A stretch of DNA of 10,650 bases. It comes from Bradyrhizobium sp. GTDB lineage: Bacteria > Pseudomonadota > Alphaproteobacteria > Rhizobiales > Xanthobacteraceae. The DNA lies in the NCBI GenBank assembly GCA_028290165.1, contig JAQGKJ010000157.1:1-10650 (forward strand), in the 5' to 3' direction. The translations under genes were made by a program, and so were the position numbers. The notes beneath the pieces were generated by a model. The model made no database searches and had not been told where the DNA came from. It saw only the letters and a program-made list of their open reading frames with translations. This document shows positions 3,474 through 10,650 of the stretch, piece by piece; within the stretch, counting starts at the first letter, position 1; every line of letters begins with the position of its first letter.

Positions 3474-4478
3474 ATGCTGGATGCCCACCAATTGCTATGG
3501 ACACAAATCGCCGCCGGCGTTTGCCTGCTGATTTTCGGCGGAATGCTATTCAACCTGCGGCGCATGCGAAGCCAGATGCAGGCGGCCAAAAACTGGGACA
3601 AGGTCGAAGGTGTCATCACGGTTTCCGAGGTGGATCAGCCTTCAGCGCATGTATCCGATGATTTGAACGACGCCACGCCGATCGTACGCTATAACTATCG
3701 CGCCGGCGGTCAGGATCTTGAGAGCGACCGGATCGCGATCGGCGGTCAGCCGCTCACGACACGCGTGCTCGCCGGCAAGCTGGTCGCAAGATATCCGGTC
3801 GGCGCCCGCATCGATGTCCATGTCGACCCAAACGATCCCAAGAACGCGCTGCTGGAGCCGGCCCAGAACTCCAATCTTGTAGCCCTACTCGCTCTGACGA
3901 TCGTGTTCGGTTTTATCGCCGCCATTTTGGTCGCGCATTCTATCGCCGGCCACGTGCTCTATACCGGCAATGGCACTCCACTGTTTGTCTTCCCACTGCC
4001 GATCCTTGCCCTGCTCGGTGCTGTCGTTAGCGTCTTCGCATTCGTCCACGGACGACGGCTCGCCAGCGCGAGCACGCGATGGCCGACCGCTGCTGGCATC
4101 ATCACGACCTCAGGCGTGATCGAGGAGGCCATCGAGGATACAAGCAACGACGACAAATCGTTCATCCGGAAGATCTATCGCTATCAGGTCGATCTCCGCT
4201 ACGCCTACCAGGTGGGCAAGCACGACTTTGTCGGCACCACCGCCAATTGGGGATGGACAGCTATTTACGGTCTTCGTGAACTCGCGGAAAAAGCGGCGGC
4301 CCAGTATAGCCAGGGACAGCCCGTCACCGTCTATTATGACCCGGAGCAGCCGGGCAATGCCGTACTGGAGCCGGACAACCGGAAAGGCTCGCTGGCGCCG
4401 CTGATCTTCGGTGCGATTTCCGCCATCGTCGGCGCGGTCATGCTCGCGTTCTTCGTCAAGGTCGGTTTCGGCAACTAG
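3474..4478 (+). CDS. DUF3592 membrane protein with two DUF3592 domains
   Basis: A 334-residue inner-membrane protein. Four hydrophobic helices are visible at residues about 10-27, 134-156, 169-192 and 307-328. Between them lie two copies of the DUF3592 domain (about 41-129 and 203-300). Each begins with a GVI/GII strand, has a Y-x-Y core (IVRYNYRAGG; DLRYAYQVGK) and ends with a closing YxDPxxPxNAxLEP element (VHVDPNDPKNALLEP; VYYDPEQPGNAVLEP). The domain's function is unknown; even spacing of helices suggests an internal duplication. The ATG at 3474 is chosen because AAGGA lies 6 bases upstream; the open frame reaches back to 3378, but that part is Arg-rich and overlaps the previous gene. It follows the frameshifted gene by 79 bases and could share its transcript. 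Confidence 0.85.
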   Translation: MLDAHQLLWTQIAAGVCLLIFGGMLFNLRRMRSQMQAAKNWDKVEGVITVSEVDQPSAHVSDDLNDATPIVRYNYRAGGQDLESDRIAIGGQPLTTRVLAGKLVARYPVGARIDVHVDPNDPKNALLEPAQNSNLVALLALTIVFGFIAAILVAHSIAGHVLYTGNGTPLFVFPLPILALLGAVVSVFAFVHGRRLASASTRWPTAAGIITTSGVIEEAIEDTSNDDKSFIRKIYRYQVDLRYAYQVGKHDFVGTTANWGWTAIYGLRELAEKAAAQYSQGQPVTVYYDPEQPGNAVLEPDNRKGSLAPLIFGAISAIVGAVMLAFFVKVGFGN

Positions 4479-4760: not shown

Positions 4761-4789
4761 TTGCGGGCGACGGCTGGCCTTGGTATATT
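4761..4789 (+). promoter_or_regulatory. Predicted promoter of caspase-like gene
   Basis: TTGCGG at 4761-4766 and TATATT at 4784-4789 are separated by 17 bases. Transcription would begin near 4796, leaving a leader of about 23 bases before the GTG at 4819. This also argues against starting translation at the in-frame TTG at 4780. Confidence 0.4.
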
Positions 4790-4818
4790 TCGGGTATTCG
4801 GCTATTGGGGGCCCTCTA

Positions 4819-6573
4819 GTGCGGTCCGCGCTTGCTATTTTTTTAGGATTTTTATTCTGCATTTCCGCCAGCCCGGCGACCGCGGAAAAGCGCGTCGCCC
4901 TCGTCATCGGCATGTCCCGATATCAGCAGGTTCCGCAGCTTGCCAATCCGGCGCGCGACGCCGATGCCATGTCCGCGCTGTTCAAGAAGGCCGGCTTCGA
5001 CGTGGTCGACAGCGAGCGCGACCTCGGCATCTCCGACCTGCGCCGCGTCGTCCGCGAATTCTCGGAGACTTCGCGGGATGCTGACATCTCGGTGGTTTAT
5101 TATGCGGGTCACGGCATCGAGGTCGACGGTACGAATTATCTGGTACCGGCGGACGCCAAATTATTGAGCGATTTCGACGTCGAGGATGAAACCGTTTCGC
5201 TCGATCGCGTGCTCAAGGCGCTTGATCCCGTCAGGCGGCTCAAGCTGGTCATCCTGGACGCCTGCCGCGATAACCCGTTCGCGAAATCGATGAAGCGAAG
5301 CGTCGCCAGCCGCTCGATCGGGCGCGGGCTCGCGAAAATCGAGCCTGCAATGTCGGACACGCTGATCGCTTTCGCCGCCAAAGCCGGCGCGGTGGCGAGC
5401 GATGGCGACGGACAAAACAGTCCGTTCGCAACCGCTCTCGTCAAGTACATTGCCGAACCCGGGCTGGATCTCCGCCTTGCCTTTGGCCGCGTTCGCGATG
5501 AAGTGCTGAAAACCACGGGCTATCGCCAGGAGCCTTTCGTTTACGGATCGCTCGGCGGTGAAACGATGGCGCTGGTTCCGCAGATTGCGAAAGCCGCCGC
5601 TCCGGCAGCTGACCCGCGTATCGACTACGAGCTCGCGGCTCAGGTCGGTACCAAGGAAGCATGGGACTCGTTTCTGGCAAACCACAGCACCGGCTTCTTT
5701 GCGGATCTCGCACGCGCGCAGAACGAAAAACTTTCCGCTGCGCAACAGACACGGACAAAGGCTGACGATGCGCGACGTGACGCCGAGGAGCAGGCCGCCC
5801 GCAAAACAGCAGAACTTCGCAAGCAAGTTGAAGAACAAGGCACGCTTCAGACGGCCGAAGCAAAGCAGAAGCTCCCCGAGCAAGCCAAGAGGGACCTTGA
5901 GGAAGCGCGGCGTCAGGTTGCCGAACAGGCCAAGAAGGAATTGGACGAAGCCAGGCATCAGGTCGAGCTTGCGCAGCAGCAGGCGGAAGCCGCGCGACAA
6001 CAGGTCGAGGAAGCCAAGCGACAGGCAGTCGCGGACGCGCAGCTTCAGGTCGAGCAAGCCAAGCGCGCCGCCAAGGCGGACGCCGAGAAGCTCGCGTCTC
6101 TGACCCCTGCCCAGTCGATCCCGCAAAACGCGTCGCCGCCGCCGTCTTCGCAAATAGACCCCGCTGATATCACGCGATTGCTGCAAGCTCACCTGAAACG
6201 CGTGGGCTGCAATCCGGGGACGGCCGACGGCAATTGGGACGACGGCTCCCAAAAGGCGCTCGAACTCTTCAACAAGAACGCCCAGACCAAATTCGACGTC
6301 AAGCTGGCCAGTCTGGATGCGCTGGACGCCGTCCGCAGCAAACCCGATCGCGTCTGCCCGCTGGTTTGCGCAAAGGGACAGCGTGCCGACGGCGATCGCT
6401 GCGTTCAGATCGGTTGCGCAAGCGCCTTCTTCCTGAACTCCAGCGGATCATGCGAGAAGAGGCCGGAGCCCGCGCCGAGAGCGCGCACCGCCCACGAGTC
6501 GGCGCCGCAACGCCGATCCGGTTCAGGCGGCGGAAAATGCTTCTCCTTCAGCGGAAAGACTTACTGCGAATAG
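4819..6573 (+). CDS. Secreted caspase-like (peptidase C14) protein with coiled coil
   Basis: A 584-residue protein with a signal peptide (MRSALAIFLGFLFCISASP, cleavage near ATA|EK) followed directly by a caspase fold. KRVALVIGMSRYQ is the first strand, VVYYAGHG carries the catalytic His98 and LDACRDNPF carries the catalytic Cys149, so the dyad of C14 peptidases (metacaspase/orthocaspase type) is intact. Residues about 300-430 form a Glu/Ala/Lys/Gln-rich coiled coil with repeated QVE-A-QQ and EEAKRQ units. A domain at about 448-512 (ITRLLQAHLKRVGC...GTADGNWDDGSQKAL) resembles a peptidoglycan-binding repeat. The tail contains at least seven Cys and ends KTYCE. The GTG at 4819 is chosen because the signal peptide and promoter fit it; GGGGG lies about 7 bases upstream. 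Bacterial relatives cleave after Arg or Lys; the substrate here is unknown. Export suggests a periplasmic or cell-wall role. Confidence 0.88.
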   Translation: MRSALAIFLGFLFCISASPATAEKRVALVIGMSRYQQVPQLANPARDADAMSALFKKAGFDVVDSERDLGISDLRRVVREFSETSRDADISVVYYAGHGIEVDGTNYLVPADAKLLSDFDVEDETVSLDRVLKALDPVRRLKLVILDACRDNPFAKSMKRSVASRSIGRGLAKIEPAMSDTLIAFAAKAGAVASDGDGQNSPFATALVKYIAEPGLDLRLAFGRVRDEVLKTTGYRQEPFVYGSLGGETMALVPQIAKAAAPAADPRIDYELAAQVGTKEAWDSFLANHSTGFFADLARAQNEKLSAAQQTRTKADDARRDAEEQAARKTAELRKQVEEQGTLQTAEAKQKLPEQAKRDLEEARRQVAEQAKKELDEARHQVELAQQQAEAARQQVEEAKRQAVADAQLQVEQAKRAAKADAEKLASLTPAQSIPQNASPPPSSQIDPADITRLLQAHLKRVGCNPGTADGNWDDGSQKALELFNKNAQTKFDVKLASLDALDAVRSKPDRVCPLVCAKGQRADGDRCVQIGCASAFFLNSSGSCEKRPEPAPRARTAHESAPQRRSGSGGGKCFSFSGKTYCE

Positions 6574-7893: not shown

Positions 7894-8445
7894 TTACCGC
7901 TTCTCTGTCGCAAACCCATAGATCAGCGCCAGCCGGTCGAGGCACTCCTGGAACCGCCGCGCAAAATAATCGAGCCAGCGCTGTGCCCGCAATCCGCGGC
8001 GCTGCCCGATTTGCTCCATCGTCATGCCCAGGATCAAAACCTCATGCACCAGCGCCGCGCCGTCGGCGCCTAATTCGCGCTCGGCGCGGTTCAGCCGCAG
8101 CACGGCCTTGCGCTGGCCCTCGGTGATGGGCTCCCGCATCCGCACGCCATCGACATATTCCCGCGTGGGATCGACGGCCTGCGGGCCGCGCTCGGCCTTT
8201 TCCCAATCGGCCTGAAACGCCCGCCCGCCCTGATATTGCGCCTCGTCGAGCTGGCGATGCGAGTGCAGGCGTCCCAACGGATCATTGCGGATCGAGCGCA
8301 GCGTGACGATTTTTTCGCCTGGCTCGAGCGCGAGCGGATCGTCCACTTCAACGGCCACCACTTCCGCGTTGCGCGGCAAATCCCGGGATCGCCGGTCATG
8401 AATCTTTGACTGCCTATAAGCCTTGTTCCGTTTGGCCCGTGCCAC
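7894..8445 (-). CDS. Hypothetical protein with C-terminal HTH-like region
   Basis: A 183-residue protein beginning at a GTG with AGGAG 9 bases upstream. The N-terminus is very basic (MARAKRNKAYRQSKIHDRRS). The middle has a conserved-looking block (DPLGRLHSHRQLDEAQYQGG), and the C-terminal third is helical with a pattern like a sigma-region-4 or terminase-type helix-turn-helix (GMTMEQIGQRRGLRAQRWLD). This would fit a DNA-binding protein. It lies 39 bases after the GcrA-like gene on the same strand and probably shares its transcript, so the S24 repressor may control both. I recall similar proteins near prophage-like regions of alphaproteobacteria but cannot name the family with certainty. Confidence 0.72.
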   Translation of the reverse strand: MARAKRNKAYRQSKIHDRRSRDLPRNAEVVAVEVDDPLALEPGEKIVTLRSIRNDPLGRLHSHRQLDEAQYQGGRAFQADWEKAERGPQAVDPTREYVDGVRMREPITEGQRKAVLRLNRAERELGADGAALVHEVLILGMTMEQIGQRRGLRAQRWLDYFARRFQECLDRLALIYGFATEKR

Positions 8446-8484: not shown

Positions 8485-9080
8485 CTACGCCGTTCGCGGT
8501 GTTACGCCCTCATGGCGCGGCAAAGAGTGGTGACACCCCCGACCGCCGGCGTCAGTTGCCTCCACGAGCCTGAGCAAGACCGCGCCAGCCGCCCGTTCCG
8601 CGGCGGTGCCGGGACCGCTCGTCAGGTGAAAATGCGGAACGCAATAGCTTGAACCCGCGCGCCGCGGGTGACCGCAAAAGGTAATGGCTTCACCCTCCTC
8701 GTCCCCGCCGTAGGGGTAGCGGCAATCGCCGCGTTCCAGCTCCATGAGCGAGAGATGGCGCGGATCGATTTCGACACAGCGAAACTCGACGGGCTCGCGC
8801 GCTCAAAAATCGGCGGCGGCCGCACCAACTCGGGCCGAGCCCGTTGGCGGGGTTCCTGAAGCGGCGGCAGCGCCGCTATCGGCGCAGCCTTGGGTATCTC
8901 GTCCGACCGGTCGGGACTGGCCAGCCCCATGCGCCTGCTGCGGCCGAGCGTGGCGCTCCGGGTATAGGCGGTTCCAAATCTCGCGTTGATCGCCTGGGCG
9001 ATTTCCGAATAGGACCGACCCCTGGCGAGGCCTTCGCGCAGCGCCTCTGAATGTTCGGCCGTCCAGTCTGACGATTGCAT
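8485..9080 (-). pseudogene. GcrA-like cell-cycle regulator, frameshifted
   Basis: GcrA proteins bind promoter DNA and sigma70 RNA polymerase, often at CcrM-methylated GANTC sites. The N-terminal part from ATG 9080 (GGGAG 8 bases upstream) is the GcrA helix-turn-helix: DWTAEHSEALREGLARG, SYSEIAQAIN, and RSATLGRSRRMGL. After PPPIFE that frame turns into Ser/Arg noise. The next frame gives REPVEFRCVEIDPRHLSLME and then the family's C-terminal signature CRYPYGG...FCGHPRRAGSSYC. The switch lies at about 8794-8804, and a TGA closes the second frame just before it, so the halves cannot be read as one protein. Restoring one base (GAG GCG CGC in place of GAGCGCGC) would give about 198 residues, normal for GcrA. 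It diverges from the S24 repressor across three operators. Either it is an inactivated gene or one G was lost in sequencing. Confidence 0.8.
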
Positions 9081-9101
9081 TCCTCGTTCTCCCGATTCCA
9101 T

Positions 9102-9132
9102 ATAATTTCTGATATTCCGAAATCAAAGTCAA
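9102..9132 (-). promoter_or_regulatory. Predicted promoter of the GcrA-like operon
   Basis: On the minus strand TTGACT (9132-9127) precedes AATTAT (9107-9102) with a 19-base spacer, somewhat long. The start of transcription would fall near 9095, giving a short leader that includes GGGAG and ends at ATG 9080. An operator copy (9107-9121) lies over the spacer and -10, so a bound repressor should block it. Confidence 0.42.
9107..9121. promoter_or_regulatory. Operator O1, probable S24 repressor site
   Basis: TTCTGATATTCCGAA, an imperfect 15-bp palindrome matching TTCTGAWNWTCNGAA. It overlaps the -10 of the leftward promoter of the GcrA-like operon. Confidence 0.65.
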
Positions 9133-9139
9133 GCTTGAT

Positions 9140-9154
9140 TTCTGAAAATCGGAA
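9140..9154. promoter_or_regulatory. Operator O2, probable S24 repressor site
   Basis: TTCTGAAAATCGGAA, 33 bases centre to centre from O1 (about three helical turns). It lies in the middle of the divergent region, just beyond the leftward -35. Confidence 0.62.
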
Positions 9155-9164
9155 TTGCATTCGT

Positions 9165-9179
9165 TTCTGAAATTCAGAA
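9165..9179. promoter_or_regulatory. Operator O3, perfect palindrome before repressor start
   Basis: TTCTGAAATTCAGAA, a perfect 7-1-7 palindrome and the best copy in the window. It ends 10 bases before the repressor's ATG, where occupancy would shut off the repressor gene itself (autoregulation). Confidence 0.7.
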
Positions 9180-9189
9180 GTATAGCGCC

Positions 9190-9828
9190 ATGCTGGATGT
9201 CAGGATGATCGAGCGGGGACTGGAAAAGCCGGGCAAGACCAAGGGCGGTCTGGCCATGGCGATGGGCGTTCGCGCCGGCGCGGTTTCGGAAATTTTGGCC
9301 GAGATTCGCCAGATCAAGGCCACCGAAATCCAGCCGATCATCGACTATCTCGAACTGAATTCGGTCCCGATCATGGGCCGCGTCGGCGCCGGCGCGACCA
9401 TCGAGCCGGAACACGAGCAGGTGCCTCCTGAAGGCCTGGGCGAGATCGAACTGCCCTTCCCGATTGCGGAGGAAACCATCGCCTTCGAGGTTTCAGGGGA
9501 TTCCATGCTGCCGAAATACGAAAATGGCGACATTATCGTGGTCTACAGGGAGCAGCGCCACCCGCTGGGGAGCTTCTACGGCGAAGAGGCGGCGGTCAGG
9601 CTAAAGACGGGCGAGCGCTATCTGAAGACGATCGAGCGGGGAAAATCCGCCACCCTCGTCAACCTCACGAGCTTCAACGCCAAGCCGATCAACGGGGTGA
9701 AGCTGGAGTGGATCGGCGAGATCTGCGTCACCCTGCCAAGGGGCCAGATCGAGCGGCTGCGTGCCAAGGCTGCGGCGCGCGCCCGCAAGGCGGCAAAAAC
9801 CCACGGCGGGCGCGCGCAAGAGAAATAA
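9190..9828 (+). CDS. S24-family self-cleaving repressor (LexA/CI type)
   Basis: A 212-residue transcriptional repressor. The N-terminus holds a short helix-turn-helix (KGGLAMAMGVRAGAVSEILA, residues 18-37). A linker carries the autocleavage site GRVGAGA, with the Ala67-Gly68 bond in the expected place. The C-terminal S24 domain has catalytic Ser105 in VSGDSM and Lys146 in RYLK, the serine-lysine dyad used by LexA, UmuD and CI. All residues needed for RecA-stimulated self-cleavage are thus present. The tail is basic (RAKAAARARKAAK). Five copies of one palindrome flank the gene and are its likely binding sites. No clear RBS precedes ATG 9190; a second ATG at 9205 is possible. It could be a prophage repressor or a LexA paralogue; the short N-terminus and local operators favour the former. 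Confidence 0.88.
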   Translation: MLDVRMIERGLEKPGKTKGGLAMAMGVRAGAVSEILAEIRQIKATEIQPIIDYLELNSVPIMGRVGAGATIEPEHEQVPPEGLGEIELPFPIAEETIAFEVSGDSMLPKYENGDIIVVYREQRHPLGSFYGEEAAVRLKTGERYLKTIERGKSATLVNLTSFNAKPINGVKLEWIGEICVTLPRGQIERLRAKAAARARKAAKTHGGRAQEK

Positions 9829-9901
9829 AGGGAACCGCGAGCTAGGCACACCCCCTGATTCTCGCCGAACCTGGGTCCGATTAGCGCGGCTAAAGCCATA
9901 T

Positions 9902-9916
9902 TTCTGATTTTCCGAA
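9902..9916. promoter_or_regulatory. Operator O4, probable S24 repressor site
   Basis: TTCTGATTTTCCGAA, lying just upstream of the -35 of the promoter at 9925-9953, with its centre 32 bases from that of O5. This spacing is close to that of O1-O2. Confidence 0.62.
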
Positions 9917-9924
9917 TATCTTGC

Positions 9925-9953
9925 TTGACTAACTTCTGATTTTCAGAAATAAT
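9925..9953 (+). promoter_or_regulatory. Repressible promoter of the 91-residue gene
   Basis: TTGACT at 9925-9930 and AATAAT at 9948-9953 are separated by exactly 17 bases, the best promoter match in the window. The spacer is almost entirely operator O5. Transcription would start near 9960 and give a leader of about 40 bases before ATG 9999. Confidence 0.62.
9934..9948. promoter_or_regulatory. Operator O5 within promoter spacer
   Basis: TTCTGATTTTCAGAA, a near-perfect palindrome (one mismatched pair) located between the -35 and -10 hexamers and touching the -10. A bound repressor would exclude RNA polymerase directly. Confidence 0.68.
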
Positions 9954-9998
9954 GAGTCTGCATCGTAAAGTCGGTTTCGCAGCAAAGAGAACACCCTT

Positions 9999-10274
9999 AT
10001 GCAGTATTTCGTCGTGATGATCGACTATGGGCGGCGCGGGCGCGAAGCTATCGTCGATCCCGAGGTCACCCGCCGCGAAGTCATCTCGCGGATCATGTCC
10101 GGCGAATACAAGAACATCAGCTTCATCCACGAAATCGCGGATTCTACGGTCGACGATATCACCGCTGAGATCCTGGCGGAGGCGGCCCTTCCCGATATCC
10201 CGGTCACGGGCGCCGATCTGCAGGCCGGCCGCTTCGATCATGCCCGCGATCTCCGAAAAACTGAGACGGCGTGA
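9999..10274 (+). CDS. 91-residue orphan under repressor control
   Basis: A small acidic cytoplasmic protein with no signal peptide or membrane helix. It opens MQYFVVMIDYGRRGREAIVD, continues TRREVISRIMSGEYKNISFI, and is mostly alternating strand and helix. AAGAGA lies 8 bases before the ATG. I recall similar short proteins in alphaproteobacterial prophage-like regions but know of no function. Its promoter contains operator O5 with O4 beside it, so it should be turned on when the S24 repressor is cleaved. It may be an effector or an accessory regulator of that switch; this is inference from position. Confidence 0.7.
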   Translation: MQYFVVMIDYGRRGREAIVDPEVTRREVISRIMSGEYKNISFIHEIADSTVDDITAEILAEAALPDIPVTGADLQAGRFDHARDLRKTETA

Positions 10275-10366
10275 TGGAGGCGAAGTTCGACACGGACTAC
10301 GACTGTTTGAACTGCATCTCAGACAGTTTATGTGTTATGAGCAAATTGTTTAGTGACGTCCGATAG
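10274..10366 (+). CDS. Possible 30-residue ORF coupled to upstream gene
   Basis: The ATG at 10274 overlaps the TGA of the preceding gene (TGATG), an arrangement typical of translational coupling. The peptide MEAKFDTDYDCLNCISDSLC carries three Cys, then VMSKLFSDVR and TAG. Composition shifts to lower GC from about 10305. It may be real but could equally be chance. Confidence 0.28.
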   Translation: MEAKFDTDYDCLNCISDSLCVMSKLFSDVR

Positions 10367-10397
10367 GCTCTCCTTGAATAAGGCTATTGGAAATTCG

Positions 10398-10650
10398 ATG
10401 ATCGCGAAGGGCTACAAACGCGCGCCAATAACGGAAGCTGTGGTGGAGTTACGGCTCGCTACCCCACTGCCTGTTGAGCTAGTCGAAAAAGTTAAAGCGC
10501 AGTTAACCGACGACTATCCTCTTACTCCTCAGATCGTGCAGAACATCACAGTTCATCCTGGTCCAGTGCCTCAGCCGAGCATTGAAATTGCCGCATAACG
10601 AATGTTCTCCGCCGATGCAACGAGCGTAGCTGTCATCGGCCGCCAGGTAT
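10398..10650 (+). pseudogene. TIGR04255-like protein, interrupted by in-frame stop, 3' partial
   Basis: From ATG 10398 the protein reads MIAKGYKRAPITEAVVELRL and continues through TPQIVQNITVHPG, the opening of the TIGR04255 family (sporadically distributed, about 250 residues, function unknown). TAA at 10596-10598 ends it after 66 residues. The same frame then resumes with family-like sequence, RMFSADATSVAVIGRQV, and runs open to the window's end. One codon has therefore become a stop: relatives, from memory, have a Tyr-Arg-Leu/Met step there, so TAC or TAT changing to TAA is likely. A GTG at 10353 is an alternative start with poorer context. Codon use is less GC-rich than in the neighbours, which suggests recent acquisition. 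Family recognition is from memory. Confidence 0.65.

Follow-up and report, generated by a model that had tools for sequence, protein, structure and literature searches.

A stretch of 10,650 nt from Bradyrhizobium sp. (assembly GCA_028290165.1, contig JAQGKJ010000157.1; the whole stretch is called the window) carries the gene of an S24-family repressor between two groups of copies of one 15-bp palindrome, its presumed operators. In our view this is probably a phage immunity region that was domesticated and is now a core locus of Bradyrhizobium, with further operators placed genome-wide at the promoters of a dispersed element. The argument is built on computed features, namely the anatomy of the locus, its conservation and phage kinship, the placement of operators at the locus and at the element starts, and the restriction of the latter operators, with one exception, to the lineage that bears the repressor.

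The repressor gene and its five operators

The features of the switch are listed below (window positions; operators carry no strand, and all −10 boxes at the locus were read by eye). The gene to the right of the repressor, orf91, encodes a conserved small protein.

9107..9121: operator 1, exact; 3′ of the −35 box of the leftward promoter; mostly at ≥90% conservation among 98 loci
9127..9132 (− strand): leftward promoter, −35 box TTGACT; its block GTCAAGC is kept in ≥90% of the 98 loci
9140..9154: operator 2, exact; partly at ≥90% conservation among 98 loci
9165..9179: operator 3, exact; shortly before the repressor start codon; weaker footprint, mostly 70-90%
9190..9828 (+ strand): S24-family repressor, 212 aa, with a predicted N-terminal DNA-binding region and a presumably self-cleaving peptidase domain; A67-G68, S105, K146
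9902..9916: operator 4, exact; just 5′ of the −35 box of the orf91 promoter; partial footprint in 95 loci
9925..9930 (+ strand): orf91 promoter, −35 box TTGACT; its block CTTGAC is kept in ≥90% of the 95 loci
9934..9948: operator 5, exact; between the −35 and −10 boxes of the orf91 promoter; footprint in 95 loci
9948-9953 (+ strand): −10 box AATAAT of the orf91 promoter, spacer 17

The palindromes that start at 9107, 9140, 9165, 9902 and 9934 are all exact copies of TTCTGAWNWTCNGAA. The first-pass annotation, made from the letters of the window, had described five copies of one 15-bp palindrome, three in the divergent region and two before the next gene, and this description held to the base; its remark that no further copy was noticed in the window is correct for exact copies, the remaining matches carrying 3 mismatches. 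With up to 3 mismatches allowed, TTCTGAWNWTCNGAA has 17 strand-matches in the window, against a mean of 5.0 in shuffled sequences, of which 1/200 had as many. The orf91 promoter reads TTGACT-N17-AATAAT, with operator 5 in the spacer. We then compared 98 upstream and 95 downstream regions, from which the phage rows and L080, a locus with a broken repressor frame, had been left out (the downstream set also lacks three rows without a recognised orf91 start). Conservation of 90% or more was found mainly in operators 1, 2 and 5 and in the −35 boxes, which read CTTGAC on either side; operators 3 and 4 were less conserved. Among the 75 readable genome loci (76 minus L080), at least one upstream operator with up to 1 mismatch was observed in 74, at least two in 72 and at least three in 36; downstream, at least one was observed in 71 and at least two in 44. 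Since a base-shuffled upstream region contained an operator in 13/3750 cases, the layout is above chance. The placement of operators and promoters would fit autoregulated repression of both flanking transcription units.

The repressor itself was matched by Peptidase_S24 (PF00717; 1.4e-12, 47.8 bits against a cut-off of 23.3) and, over residues 9-167, by a PHROG transcriptional repressor family (2.3e-12). Ala67-Gly68, Ser105 and Lys146 were invariant in 102/102 aligned repressor rows, four of which are copies of one phage repressor and from which L080 had been dropped. Of the self-cleavable repressor gene that had been proposed, the S24 family and the intact Ala-Gly site, Ser105 and Lys146 are borne out by the Pfam match and these invariant residues. 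The Pfam scan gave no match of the protein to the LexA DNA-binding domain PF01726, and a sequence search of the PDB found no relatives of it. We also considered that the palindrome might be a general LexA box. The LexA-type box is GAAC-N7-GAAC; it has no exact match in the window, and its one-mismatch matches (7, against a mean of 9.05) are at chance level. In addition, a separate LexA_DNA_bind gene is present elsewhere in 6/6 genomes searched, and on these two counts the candidate was rejected. A switch distinct from LexA is supported by these sequence comparisons. In genome G044, six LexA_DNA_bind matches of equal score were seen in 93-aa frames over the genome, and these are probably copies of a repeated mobile gene.

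Distribution and origin of the locus

A repressor ortholog (E ≤ 1e-20) is present in 141/146 Bradyrhizobium genomes. Among 248 genomes of the family, orthologs with 75-90% identity were found in 17 and lesser S24 relatives (33-53%) in 11, with no match in the remaining 220, and a search of public species genomes yielded 76 loci, 68 of them titled Bradyrhizobium. The repressor gene is therefore close to universal in the genus, and it was not seen outside the genus in this sample. The first-pass annotation had called for a synteny comparison; in 81 loci (the 76 and five viral contigs), a relative of orf91 was found in 77, a GcrA-like gene in 74 and a DUF6456 gene in 73. The frequency of the ortholog in the genus led us to reject a recent local island, and a plasmid origin was rejected as well, with no plasmid match for the locus or for orf91. 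Of the proposed domesticated regulatory island, the phage-immunity-like S24 switch domesticated in a chromosome stands, but "island" is too modest a word for a locus that is nearly universal. It is very improbable that the locus is a cryptic prophage remnant without current function. The neighbouring genes do have phage relatives, and frames are broken here and there (the GcrA-like one in the window, L056 and L336, that of the repressor in L080), but the near-universal presence, the invariant catalytic residues and the conserved operators at two promoters all point to long-term selection.

The likeness of the layout to a phage immunity region, which had also been claimed, was confirmed: the repressor lies between operator groups, the promoters diverge, and the viral contig L002 is similarly arranged. 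The IMG/VR contigs L002-L005 carry one repressor, which is 79% identical to that of the window over residues 1-205. In L002 three operators lie upstream at matching places (the middle one with 1 mismatch), operator 1 being identical in 15/15 bases, and two more lie downstream, 32 bp apart, before a rightward ORF. This contig also has genes of phage recombination and replication loading, whose products are related to exonuclease VIII, to a DnaD-like loader and to Holliday-junction-resolvase-type nucleases. A tree was built from the peptidase domain with 99 rows in the ingroup and, as the outgroup, 7 out of 20 other phage relatives; it had few columns and long outgroup branches, and L002 branched outside all chromosomal rows with support 97/91. 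In 11 of these 20 phage relatives the alignment begins no earlier than residue 54-59, and none of the 20 has the palindrome (up to 1 mismatch) beside its repressor gene; the phage relative L373 does share HTH-like residues.

The neighbours also have kin in phages. Relatives of orf91 occur beside ERF-family genes in the prophages ppBeUSDA76-2 and ppBjS10J-1, and in the former a DUF6456 relative lies on the strand opposite to orf91. In the viral contig L394 the gene order of the window recurs, with a GcrA-family gene (2.1e-17) running leftward, the gene of an S24 repressor diverging from it, and a relative of orf91 (65% over residues 2-62). Hence, there is a phage whose genes resemble the set found in the window, GcrA among them. 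No GcrA-like gene was found in the named-phage collection, and scans of IMG/VR with the GcrA-like gene and with DUF6456 found none; GcrA surfaced only in L394, which was reached via orf91. A GcrA-C-like stretch in L382 was discarded, as it had no Pfam match. At 3949-4284 (− strand) of L394, adjoining the GcrA gene, there is a 111-aa protein that matches the LexA DNA-binding domain (PF01726, 5.1e-12) and lacks an S24 match. From these comparisons a phage immunity region is the best-supported origin of the locus.

Operators at a dispersed element

The first-pass annotation had also called for a genome scan for the palindrome. In 20 genomes TTCTGANNNTCNGAA was found 1-37 times on the forward strand, where the reversed control had 0-1 matches (0-2 on the other strand), and in 146 genomes TTCYGANNNTCRGAA had 0 to 52 matches against 0-5 for the control. 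The first-pass annotation had named a motif occurring all over the genome as a refuting result, and here the outcome was unexpected: the palindrome is scattered in the relatives, but in genome G066 it stands almost only at one dispersed element. The genome-wide data are those of relatives of the window's genome, and the places were studied one by one, in full in G066 and in part in G005, G006 and G009. G066, whose repressor (92% identity) is one of the two best matches to that of the window, has the palindrome at 53 places. Of the 51 that were examined, 4 lie at the repressor locus, 45 lie beside a dispersed element of ~430 bp, and the last 2 have no element body, but their flanks resemble element starts. 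For 43 of the 45 the palindrome lies 0 or 16 bp from the body, give or take one base; in G006 the distance is roughly 45 bp more. The commonest element palindrome is identical to operator 5 of the window in all 15 bases. In type B elements the operator covers the presumed −35 region, and there repression would be likely; in type A elements it lies ~6 bp upstream of the −35 box, a position from which repression or activation would both be possible. In G066, units of the form TGATTTGCCCG(A/T)C(A/G)GGC were seen 5′ of many type B elements, e.g., in L220 upstream of 1500, and are apparently another dispersed palindromic repeat.

The body of the element is predicted to fold as RNA. With 130 distinct copies, taken from several genomes and in many cases fetched by the palindrome, the alifold energy was −85.5 kcal/mol, and 15 column shuffles gave −10.1 ± 3.4; a control of this kind is lenient, and the compensatory changes, found in 24 of the 70 pairs with 116/9069 cells broken, are independent of it. 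In the G066 consensus one forward frame and one reverse frame contain open stretches of >100 codons, and in that of G006 the forward frames are interrupted by stops. The element is apparently RNA-coding and presumably non-coding for protein, although coding would be possible too. Rfam gave no match in three element loci, the window or L002, and in L288 it gave only hairpin matches far under the gathering score. No copy of the element was found in the window or among phages; among plasmids there was one partial match, annotated as a hypothetical protein. The literature matches listed contained nothing on the locus or the element.

Family genomes without the repressor offer a natural comparison: there the same element mostly has a plain promoter. 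The element was found in 74 of the 248 family genomes, i.e., in 17/17 with the repressor and in 57 without it; two best candidates per genome were scored, and absences are therefore weak. Into the comparison, from among the listed places, entered 37 copies of genomes without and 21 of genomes with the repressor, of which 3 and 4, respectively, were dropped as duplicates or at edges (L435 and L449, at contig edges, had been left out before). An operator with up to 1 mismatch was present at 10/17 copies with the repressor and at 1/34 without it (Fisher p 1.4e-5), whereas a plain promoter (TTGAC-N16-19, at least 4 of TATAAT) was present at 2/17 and 26/34, respectively. In this and the following operator counts the copies are not independent of one another. 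When all copies were pooled by lineage, operators were observed at 23/47 in Bradyrhizobium and at 1/34 outside (p 3.6e-6). Because of this split by lineage, and because Bradyrhizobium genomes without a repressor match still have operators at 9/16 copies, we conclude that the operator follows the repressor-bearing lineage, in which it replaces the plain promoter, and that the link tracks the lineage more than the presence of the gene.

Several observations weigh against the proposed history or against a working link between repressor and element. The operators just mentioned, counted with up to 1 mismatch in five genomes without a repressor match, were distributed as 3/4 in G065, 4/4 in G112, 1/4 in G109, 1/3 in G035 and 0/1 in G050; some of these genomes may be incomplete drafts. 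Pooling by gene presence gave 14/31 with the repressor against 10/50 without it (p 0.02), and the gain of the element operators may have been one event. The lone exception outside the lineage, L434 of the draft genome G385, has a perfect operator, and no repressor was found there. In the japonicum-like genomes, i.e., those with 75-78% identical repressors, the genome-wide counts of the palindrome are near background, most operators at the locus carry 1 mismatch, and operators were found at 4/14 element copies in the four such genomes that have the repressor. The 30 best G066 copies by body have an operator (up to 1 mismatch) in 30/30 and a perfect one in 18, which speaks for the link, but this set is biased, as its query, L220, was itself chosen by the palindrome and the scoring covered 40 of the 129 candidates. 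With respect to the repressor, the HTH_3 match in its N-terminus reached 15.4 bits, under the Pfam cut-off of 23. With respect to phage kinship, the downstream operators of L002 lie ~0.5 kb past the repressor gene instead of ~75 bp as in the window, ppBeUSDA76-2, ppBjS10J-1 and L394 have no such operators near their switches, and the L394 repressor has no tblastn match to that of the window.

An alternative is that the domesticated switch acts only locally and that the element palindromes belong to the elements, bound by another protein or by none. The elements of the 57 family genomes without the repressor indicate that it is not needed for them, the Bradyrhizobium genomes without a repressor match and L434 keep operators all the same, and a short motif that arose a single time in a repeat can be copied along with it. 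Against this reading, the distance between palindrome and body varies between and within genomes, the palindrome is nearly absent outside the genus, and the commonest element palindrome coincides with operator 5 at every base. We consider a purely local switch rather unlikely.

In the reading that we favour, that of a domesticated switch with genome-wide operators, a temperate-phage immunity region would have been domesticated anciently and become a core locus of Bradyrhizobium. A dimer of the S24 repressor would bind the 15-bp palindromes, so that operator 1 would serve to repress the divergent promoter of the GcrA paralog, operators 2 and 3 the repressor's own promoter, and operators 4 and 5 that of orf91. 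After DNA damage, RecA-stimulated self-cleavage at Ala67-Gly68 would inactivate the repressor. Within the genus, the repressor would have gained genome-wide operators at the promoters of the ~430-bp element, many copies of which would be held off together and then released together. DNA binding, repression, RecA dependence and the transcription and non-coding nature of the element are inferred. That the host-adopted phage repressor is a genus-wide, DNA-damage-releasable silencer of dispersed structured RNAs, with dozens of elements having taken up its operator in their promoters and turning on together upon its cleavage, and that it possibly also provides a standing immunity to L002-like phages, is a tentative extension to which we give slightly less than even chances. 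Bacteria may, in such a case, hold repeats off with an old viral repressor until DNA damage occurs. If true, this would show how a phage immunity switch can turn into a core regulator of bacteria and how its operators spread over the chromosome via a repeat family, it would give a role to a dispersed structured element of nitrogen-fixing Bradyrhizobium that matches no Rfam family, and it would predict that Bradyrhizobium is residently immune to one class of temperate phages.

Neighbouring genes and known systems

The genes next to the switch are the following.

7894..8445 (− strand): DUF6456 protein (PF20057, 1.4e-6; PHROG 21451, 2.1e-16), 49% in phage ppBeUSDA76-2; syntenic neighbour of the switch
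8485..8745 (− strand): C-terminal half of the GcrA-family gene, PF07750 profile positions 105-154, in the other frame
8622..9101 (− strand): N-terminal half of the same GcrA-family gene (a paralog), PF07750 profile positions 2-78; continues out of frame
9999..10274 (+ strand): orf91, conserved small protein; phage relatives 46-52%, 65% over residues 2-62 in viral contig L394

The leftward gene had been called a GcrA-type factor. Its membership of the family (PF07750) is confirmed, but in the window it is not one frame, and it is a paralog. The gene is in one frame in 93 of the 96 loci carrying it, as counted by a profile search of all frames (the profile was built from 79 proteins intact by tblastn frames); the break in the window may be a true mutation or a sequencing error. 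The N-terminal half, searched alone, scored 17.2 bits with NF050816, the cell-cycle GcrA equivalog, whose cut-off is 280, and its PHROG matches, which were weak (E 0.0002 to 0.08) and pointed to HNH and head-morphogenesis families, were taken as HTH likeness. GcrA acts at CcrM-methylated GANTC promoters, and the first-pass annotation had proposed that this gene wires a DNA-damage switch into the GcrA/CcrM cell-cycle circuit. The family assignment, the intact frame at most loci and operator 1 in the promoter are in keeping with such wiring, but in 8/8 genomes searched the copy at the locus ranks third among the GcrA-family matches, behind two better ones elsewhere, and the window copy is broken. 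Moreover, a GcrA-family gene stands beside a phage switch in L394, so that phage ancestry explains the leftward gene. The tie to the cell cycle is thus not supported, and we regard it as quite improbable.

The predicted fold of orf91 has a confident core at residues 1-62, for which no PDB match was found at E ≤ 0.001 (best 0.42); its viral matches were weak (best 0.03). The statement that no integrase or structural genes are visible proved right for the window proteins scanned (10 against Pfam, 6 against PHROG), among which no match to an integrase or a convincing structural gene was found, and the window contains no tRNA. At its left end (1-2292, + strand) there is an outer-membrane protein gene, which was taken by eye for Omp85/BamA-like; a relative of it lies within the flanks of 30/81 loci. 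A caspase-domain (Peptidase C14) protein is encoded at 4780-6573 (+ strand), with a sub-cut-off peptidoglycan-binding match and a match to the PADLOC caspase model (1.8e-9). At 10353-10598 (+ strand), an 81-aa piece resembles the start of TIGR04255 (24.9 bits, cut-off 30; positions 2-62 of 252) and is perhaps a truncated gene.

Among known systems, the lambda-type immunity region (CI/Cro, OL/OR) shares with this locus a self-cleavable S24 repressor, divergent promoters, several operators and a second operator group at the rightward promoter. It differs in that no Cro was seen here, the divergent gene being a GcrA paralog, and in that this is a core chromosomal locus in a window without other phage genes nearby. 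The LexA/SOS regulon is similar in its S24 peptidase, in a presumed RecA-triggered cleavage and in many sites over the genome, but the repressor described here has no match to the LexA DNA-binding domain, recognises presumably another palindrome and coexists with a separate LexA gene, and in G066 the palindromes sit at one repeat family and not at many genes. The element is short, dispersed and multi-copy, as are MITE-like non-autonomous elements, but differs by the conserved RNA structure of its body and by its promoter. Br-REP1 and Br-REP2 (PMC5082802) are likewise dispersed palindromic repeats of Bradyrhizobium, but they have other sequences, and in the part of that paper at hand they are not linked to a repressor and the terms "LexA" and "SOS" occur 0 times. 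The Dic region of the Qin cryptic prophage (PMC10448788) belongs to E. coli K-12, and the available portion of its description does not mention dispersed operator-bearing repeats, but it resembles the present case in the cryptic-prophage regulation of the small RNA DicF and the small protein DicB.

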